This document shows, piece by piece, positions 19,289 to 48,826 of a stretch of DNA of 59,494 bases. The notes beneath the pieces were generated by a model. That model worked only from the letters and a program-made list of their open reading frames with translations. It was not told where the DNA came from and made no database searches. Source of the stretch: Nitrospirota bacterium (GTDB taxonomy: Bacteria > Nitrospirota > 9FT-COMBO-42-15 > HDB-SIOI813); the NCBI GenBank assembly GCA_020851375.1, contig JADZCV010000046.1:1-59494 (forward strand). Reading direction: 5' to 3'. A program made the position numbers and the translations under genes. Positions within the stretch are counted from its first letter, which is position 1. Every line of letters starts with the position of its first letter.

Positions 19289-19451
19289 GAACCGTCATGG
19301 GCCTGGGCTCACAAGGGGTCATGAAAACGTCATTCCCGCGTAAGCGGGAATCCAGACCGAGGCCTGATTCTGGATTCCCACTCCCCGCATAAATCCTGCG
19401 GGGACAGGTTTCGTGGGAATGACGGGTACATAGGAGCAATTTCAGGTGAAA
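19289..19451 (+). repeat. Dispersed palindromic repeat, copy A, ending at the PBP1A start codon
   Basis: Nested inverted repeats are visible (GTCATTCCCGCG with CGTGGGAATGAC; AATCCAGA with TCTGGATT). It aligns along its length with copy B at 47832-48037. Its right end carries TAGGAGCA and TTCAGGTGAAA, so the repeat itself contains the ribosome-binding site and GTG start of the downstream gene. The copies diverge right after GTGAAA. Confidence 0.85.
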
Positions 19452-47814: not shown

Positions 47815-47831
47815 TCACAGAGATTTCACGT

Positions 47832-48037
47832 AAACCGTCATGAGCCCTTCGACTGTTCGACAAGCTCACAGCACAGGGCTCACCAGGGTTCATGAAAATG
47901 TCATTCCCTCGTAAGCGGGAATCCAGACCGACGGCATGGTTCTGGATTCCCACTTATGTGGGAATGACGGGTACTCAAATCCTGCGGGGACAGGTTCTGT
48001 GGGAATTACGGGTGAATAGGAGCATTTTCAGGTGAAA
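47832..48037 (+). repeat. Dispersed palindromic repeat, copy B, ending at the panB start codon
   Basis: It shares blocks with copy A (19289-19451): the GCGGGAATCCAGACCGA core, TCTGGATTCCCACT, AATCCTGCGGGGACAGGTT and the right end with TAGGAGCA and TTCAGGTGAAA. It has an extra inverted segment on the left, around CCCTTCGACTGTTCGAC. The GTG of panB (48032) lies inside it, with AGGAG 9 nt before, exactly as in copy A. Confidence 0.85.
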
Positions 48038-48826
48038 ATTACTGTACCGGACATACGTCGAAGAAAGCATGATGGCCGGAAGATTACCATGCTTACGGCA
48101 TATGACTGCACCTTTGCCAGGCTGATTGATGAAGCCGGCATTGACATTGTCCTTGTCGGAGACTCACTCGGAACTGTTGTGCAGGGTTATCCAACGACAT
48201 TGCATGTCACAATGGATGAGATGATATATCATACCAGGATTGCTTCAAGGGGGGTTCAAAATGCCCTTGTTGTAGGGGACATGCCTTTTATGTCATATCA
48301 GACGTCAGTATCAGATGCGGTGCGAAATGCCGGAAGGTTTCTTAAAGAAGGCTCGGCAGCAGCAGTCAAGATTGAAGGAGGATCTGCTGTTATAGACAAA
48401 ATCAGGGCAATAATTTCATCAGGAATTCCGGTTATGGGACATCTGGGTCTTCTTCCCCAGTCAGTCCATCAAATGGGCGGGTATAAGGTGCAGGGGAGGG
48501 AGGATTCCTCTGCAGAGAAGATTCTGAGTGATGCAGCAATGCTTGAAGATGCCGGAGTCTTTGCAGTTGTACTTGAGGGCATTCCGGCAGGTCTCGCATC
48601 AAAAATTACAAATACGCTGACCATACCCACTATTGGAATCGGCGCCGGGGCCCAATGTGGCGGTCAGGTGCTTGTCATAAATGATCTTCTTGGTTTGTCT
48701 CCTCAGCCTGTACCCAGATTTGTAAGACAATATGCCGCAATGAGGAATATATGCACTGATGCAGTAAAACGCTTTAAGGAAGATGTAGAAAACGGCATAT
48801 TTCCTTCCGCTGACGAGAGTTACTGA
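48032..48826 (+). CDS. panB: 3-methyl-2-oxobutanoate hydroxymethyltransferase
   Basis: PanB adds a methylene-THF carbon to 2-oxoisovalerate to make ketopantoate for CoA. The family blocks KITMLTAYDCTFA, VGDSLGTVVQGY, GDMPFMSYQ and HLGLLPQSVHQMGG are complete in 264 residues. Start codon GTG and ribosome site come from the repeat. It follows folate genes that supply its donor. panC and panD are not here. Confidence 0.95.
   Translation: MKITVPDIRRRKHDGRKITMLTAYDCTFARLIDEAGIDIVLVGDSLGTVVQGYPTTLHVTMDEMIYHTRIASRGVQNALVVGDMPFMSYQTSVSDAVRNAGRFLKEGSAAAVKIEGGSAVIDKIRAIISSGIPVMGHLGLLPQSVHQMGGYKVQGREDSSAEKILSDAAMLEDAGVFAVVLEGIPAGLASKITNTLTIPTIGIGAGAQCGGQVLVINDLLGLSPQPVPRFVRQYAAMRNICTDAVKRFKEDVENGIFPSADESY

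Follow-up and report, generated by a model that had tools for sequence, protein, structure and literature searches.

A small palindromic repeat at the start codons of ordinary genes in a Nitrospirota genome

Two repeat copies at the PBP1A and panB gene starts

The window, the whole stretch of DNA analysed here (59,494 nt), is one entire contig of a 2.50 Mb Nitrospirota genome that is 98% complete (G000). As far as could be found, it holds only two copies of the repeat, copy A at the start of the PBP1A gene (mrcA) and copy B at the start of panB (Table 1). They have common blocks of 61 nt (90% identity) and 56 nt (93% identity), and 0.00 chance occurrences of the internal palindrome are expected in the window. 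Neither a promoter nor a terminator was found in copy A.

The original prediction, that the right end of copy A supplies the ribosome site and GTG start of PBP1A, was confirmed: AGGAG is followed by nine bases, CAATTTCAG, and then by GTGAAA, where a 784-codon frame matching PBP1A family models begins. Profiles for panB align from residue 2 of the frame that opens at the GTG of copy B. The arrangement at panB had been described as identical, which is correct for the AGGAG-9 nt-GTGAAA spacing but not for every base, as the right ends slightly differ (GCAATTTCAG vs. GCATTTTCAG). The span first given for copy A, 19289-19451, also requires adjustment, with the element better bounded as in Table 1 and the pentamer that precedes it assigned to a left copy of the target. 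Judged from sequence alone, this ATGAA is probably the displaced original start of PBP1A.

Table 1. Positions of the repeat copies, their parts, and the adjoining genes within the window.
Feature	Position	Strand	Basis or remark
Left target copy of copy A, ATGAA	19287..19291	+	ATGAA joined to ACGTAAG; mrcA of G004 starts ATGAAACGG at the same codon
Element copy A, 159 nt, CCGTCATG to GGTGAA	19292..19450	+	Sequence, copy comparison
Left-end hairpin region of copy A, TGGGCCTGGGCTCA	19298..19311	+	GAGCC..GGCTC in most copies
Guide-like segment of copy A, TCATGAAAA (consensus TTCATGAAAA)	19319..19327	+	Complementary to TTTTC-nnn-TGAA; role inferred
Large right-end stem of copy A, GTCATTCCCGCG to GGGAATGAC, with two inner hairpins	19329..19424	+	DNA fold, z = -5.5
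Shine-Dalgarno AGGAG carried by copy A	19432..19436	+	Sequence
Right-end copy GTGAA of copy A, present PBP1A start codon	19446..19450	+	Sequence, ORF, profiles
PBP1A gene, 784 aa	19446..21800	+	ORF and PBP1A family models
Left target copy of copy B, decayed (GTAAA)	47830..47834	+	Sequence
Element copy B, 202 nt, long form	47835..48036	+	Comparison with copy A
Shine-Dalgarno AGGAG of copy B	48018..48022	+	Nine bases before GTGAAA
panB gene, beginning at the GTG of copy B	48032..48826	+	ORF and panB profiles

Anatomy, distribution, and the search for an enzyme

Well over a hundred copies of this small palindromic repeat are present in the genome. A genome search recovered ∼50 related copies of the 160-nt form, and the end motif TTTTCNRRTGAA occurs 202 times, compared with 4 for the reversed control pattern. 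Loci were taken place by place, and only the sequence around matches was examined. Copies aligned with their flanks follow a common plan, which runs from a left end CCGTCATGAGCC through a GAGCC..GGCTC hairpin with a short or long loop to AAGGnTTCATGAAAA, a variable middle, and a right end GGAG-YA-TTTTCRRRTGAA. G000 contains three or more middles, among them the GTCATTCCCGCG palindrome of copy A, one running CCCCCTTTA..TAAAGGGGG, and one that ends in CTTTGTGGTAAATAACGG; elements of another genus have other middles within the same architecture. The spacing between left and right ends clusters near 133, 160, 172, 187, and 200 nt. Copies are single or form head-to-tail arrays with junctions that read TTTTCRRRTGAA; the draft assemblies are in many contigs and arrays may be misassembled, but single copies in unrelated contigs and genera agree.

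DNA folds of three elements contain a subterminal hairpin at each end, with z from -5.1 to -7.0. The shared end sequence TTTTC-nnn-TGAA is found on both sides in direct rather than inverted orientation, and the repeat is not a classical MITE with terminal inverted repeats and a target-site duplication. No autonomous long copy was found among the loci examined; apparent long spacings between left and right ends were rejected as reverse-strand matches of the near-palindromic left end, the exception being one copy with a decayed right end. Among motif sites of G000, right ends TTTTCGAGTGAA are mostly terminal (38/44) and TTTTCAGGTGAA sites are mostly followed by another element (47/66), as though no further element could insert at GAG ends.

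The repeat is largely limited to one family. The left-end pattern TCACnAAGGnnnATGAAAA was found in nine of the ten genomes of the family, with up to 343 copies; of 108 other genomes in the phylum sample, just 8 contained it, in small numbers. Matches to the left-junction pattern fall in Nitrospirae metagenome-assembled genomes (MAGs), nearly all from one groundwater isolate; a match in Bacillus nakamurai was discarded, having no element around it, and no match to the element was found in phage and plasmid records. In another Nitrospirae MAG, a lone left end (hairpin, CACAAAGGAGAATGAAAATAAAG) runs into an apparent lipoprotein gene (L140:4295-4400), and the guide segment itself may act there as ribosome site and ATG start.

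Searches for Y1 and Y2 transposases gave no candidate matching the element. Genes with the Y1_Tnp domain (PF01797) are limited to one in G000, and none occur in G007 or G004; Y2_Tnp is patchily distributed and absent from G000. The sole Y1 gene of G000, which is RAYT-like, looks truncated and fused to unrelated sequence (L143). A lost or unrecognised transposase is not excluded.

A domesticated TnpA-REP (RAYT) system, in which a single HUH gene spreads the repeats as REP/BIME elements, would account for hairpins in high copy number and for the RAYT-like Y1 genes of G000 and several relatives, and the repeat resembles REP, BIME, and REPIN sequences in being a high-copy intergenic palindrome that forms arrays alongside single genomic HUH candidates. 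This explanation is nevertheless unlikely. Beyond the truncation of the RAYT-like gene, the end motif TTTTCNRRTGAA is absent from the examined stretches around every Y1 gene of the family, that one included, and the complete genome G007, richest in the repeat with 484 sites, has no Y1_Tnp gene. The GT[AG]G feet of canonical REPs (PMC6006769) are not seen at the hairpins, the conserved ends reading CCGTCATGAGC and TTTTCRRRTGAA. The present units are also much longer than REP-type sequences, form direct head-to-tail arrays with exact junctions, and are placed precisely at start codons.

Start signals and empty sites

In dozens of ordinary genes the repeat coincides exactly with the start codon; the frame is kept and the start signals of the repeat replace those of the gene. 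The least biased evidence comes from the right ends of 52 BLAST copies of copy A, chosen without a motif. The expected base begins an RTG in 49 of these; nine ends run into a further element and 40 are terminal, with an ORF of at least 60 codons opened at the RTG of the element in 28 of the 40, compared with 1/40 in a shifted control frame. In a motif-chosen set, an ORF begins at this codon in 60 of 87 terminal ends (control frame 6/87; the other frame is unusable as a control because TGA itself blocks it). A Shine-Dalgarno-like motif is present at 83 of the 87 terminal right ends, and also at 33 of 40 right ends with another element, and no gene, ahead of them; the ribosome site is therefore the repeat's own. 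Genes starting at the element include those for shikimate kinase (aroK), PurN, RmlD, alanine racemase (alr), QueC, PrmC, LexA, HisG, and HemC, with product names taken partly from reading the sequence. Each of the ten ORFs tested has an alignment to one or more NCBIfam profiles that begins at protein residue 1-7.

Orthologues without the repeat point the same way. None of the mrcA genes lacking it keeps the AGGAG and GTG arrangement of copy A: in G001 yifB leads almost directly into TTGTTGAAG, G002 reads GGAGGGATATTTGATTGAAACG, and the gene of G004 has its own start (Table 1) behind different upstream DNA. The panB gene of G001, also without the repeat, starts ATGAAACAAAAAATTAC. These mrcA orthologues and the ends of the other copies support the earlier proposal that the start signals are a property of the repeat and not of the gene; its suggestion that gene expression could be rewired is plausible, with no expression data available.

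For 25 further genes compared with two congeners, RTGAA lies within one codon of the aligned start in 27 of 39 orthologue starts, against a background of RTGAA starts in 11 of 50 other ORFs of the window. Because relatives mostly begin with (A/G)TGAA at the same codon, the proposal can be refined: the gene appears to provide the landing site, with an existing start substituted and no new start created. The clearest pair of filled and empty sites is at a UbiV-like gene, which reads acaagggaaaATGAAATTATC in G001 and, in G000, acaagggcaaGTGAg, the element, and GTGAAACTATC, with the old ribosome site and start codon retained to the left of the element. A stop/start overlap is affected in another pair (L082 vs. 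L185), where G002 reads attattttcaggTGActcc and G000 reads attattttcaggTGAA, the element, and GTGAACCGG; around the insert, the TGA stop of the upstream gene and the GTG start of the downstream gene are both preserved.

Relatives also carry elements at some of the same genes. In the congener G002, the starts of rfbD, ispD, alr, and lexA, which are occupied in G000 too, carry elements whose middle differs from those of G000; G008 has a related element at panB, a gene without one in its congener G005. The simplest interpretation is that insertions happened independently at the same places, and a swap of one middle for another is not excluded. At lexA (L036, L160, L161), a GAACGAATGTTC-like site and the gene start are separated by an element array of ∼450 nt, with a different element at this region in G002 and none in G001.

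Left flanks of first copies end in GTGAA or ATGAA in 49 of 83 raw matches, part of the remainder being false matches. The idea that all left flanks are displaced gene starts was dropped, a Shine-Dalgarno-like signal being strong only in T-rich flanks (30/47, against 5 and 8 in control windows). Many carry GGRGA-TTTTC, possibly as remnants of older elements instead of displaced gene starts, and some may be remnants of older right ends; in the left flank of the queC element (L062:1140-1212), 24 nt identical to the element right end (TATATAGGAGCATTTTCAGGTGAA) are absent from the empty site of G001.

Ordinary REP/MITE-type repeats with no special site in intergenic DNA might produce a similar picture if only insertions near starts with a usable right end survived selection. 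Selection is needed in any model, insertions inside genes being lost, and the background frequency of RTGAA starts given above shows them to be common. Such an origin is nonetheless improbable, more so than a RAYT system, as the junction is base-exact, with 28 of the 40 terminal ends read from the same element codon; relatives that lack the element usually show RTGAA there, and junctions within arrays are TTTTCRRRTGAA.

Proposed insertion and its significance

The preferred reading, held with a probability of roughly 0.7, is that the repeat is mobile but non-autonomous and inserts immediately 3′ of (A/G)TGA(A), its right end recreating that site; movement is inferred and has not itself been shown. 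An element of ∼130-240 nt would insert directly 3′ of the (A/G)TGA(A) pentamer, with a preference for TTTTC-nnn-TGAA, and in its right end, GGAG-nn-TTTTC-nn-(A/G)TGAA, a Shine-Dalgarno sequence would precede a copy of the target. Many genes begin with (A/G)TGAA (Met-Lys/Asn), and (A/G)TGA is frequent where a stop and a start overlap, so insertion there would break nothing. The original start with its ribosome site, or else the stop of the upstream gene, would be left intact to the left of the insert, and the gene would be read from the start of the element. Insertions elsewhere in genes would be disruptive and lost, so that surviving copies would be those at gene starts. New copies may land on the right end of old ones, giving head-to-tail arrays.

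Movement may occur as single-stranded DNA, with the internal TTCATGAAAA inferred to pair with the target or the right end. In a single-strand fold of one element, a left hairpin forms and TTTTC..TGAACC pairs to GGTTCATGAAAA; in an element of another genus, the right end pairs to the same guide-like segment. An A in the first or last position of the triplet between TTTTC and TGAA would pair with a T of this segment and should be preferred if the segment chooses the target. Such an A is present in 55 of 66 occupied targets and 42 of 87 unoccupied right ends (p = 8e-6, an optimistic value that ignores descent among copies). Guide pairing is plausible but not shown, because no covariation between guide and right end was found beyond the invariant TTTTC/GAAAA core, though it was expected. 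The least probable explanation of the repeat is that it serves as a cis-regulatory RNA leader, retained because it controls the translation or stability of many genes, and that it owes its spread to recombination rather than site-specific transposition: strong stems (z = -3.7), the long leader between a putative SOS-box region and lexA, and a guide-like segment that could mask the start codon in mRNA are compatible with it, but the genes have unrelated functions, congener orthologues often lack the element, multi-copy arrays and copies facing no gene occur, and Rfam matches in the window are to tRNA only, none to the repeat.

For a mobile element inserting at (A/G)TGA(A), the closest known counterparts are the IS200/IS605 family, which has hairpins, a 5′ guide, and insertion 3′ of a fixed target without duplication (PMC7290912, PMC6006769), and its ends-only derivatives (PATEs). 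The likenesses include hairpins near both ends, a right end that echoes the target, and complementarity between the target and an internal segment; judged from left flanks and filled and empty pairs, insertion likewise falls 3′ of a fixed short target and leaves no random target duplication. The differences are that no transposase has been identified here, that the putative guide is a single segment of ∼10 nt for both ends instead of a tetranucleotide at each hairpin foot, and that the right end carries a Shine-Dalgarno sequence and start codon. By analogy, the element is inferred to work like IS200/IS605, and membership is not established in the absence of an enzyme.

Other small repeats offer further parallels. 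Rickettsia palindromic elements coexist with genes by in-frame retention (PMC10969869), but lie inside reading frames and add peptide, whereas the present repeat extends no further than the start codon and contributes no peptide. Pneumococcal BOX elements are modular, and boxC can encode a start codon (PMC3049150), but BOX frames are short predicted ORFs, whereas conserved housekeeping genes start from the element described here. A review of prokaryotic MITEs makes no mention of start codons or ribosomes (PMC10969869), and no precedent was found for a repeat whose insertion at start codons exchanges the start signal, which is weak evidence of novelty as most subscription papers were outside the search. 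The odds are about even that this is a new class of mobile DNA, one that uses intrastrand base pairing to find start codons and stop/start overlaps, brings a replacement translation start, can multiply harmlessly in essential-gene operons, and has repeatedly swapped the starts of the same genes in related species.

If the preferred reading is correct, dozens of core genes in this family owe their ribosome site and start codon to a mobile element. This suggests a route to harmless selfish DNA in a dense bacterial genome, namely to target a short sequence that allows seamless insertion and to bring the missing signal. Guide pairing, if real, would represent a long single-stranded-DNA guide for site choice. 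The family also offers a natural experiment on the evolution of translation starts and a warning for gene-start annotation.
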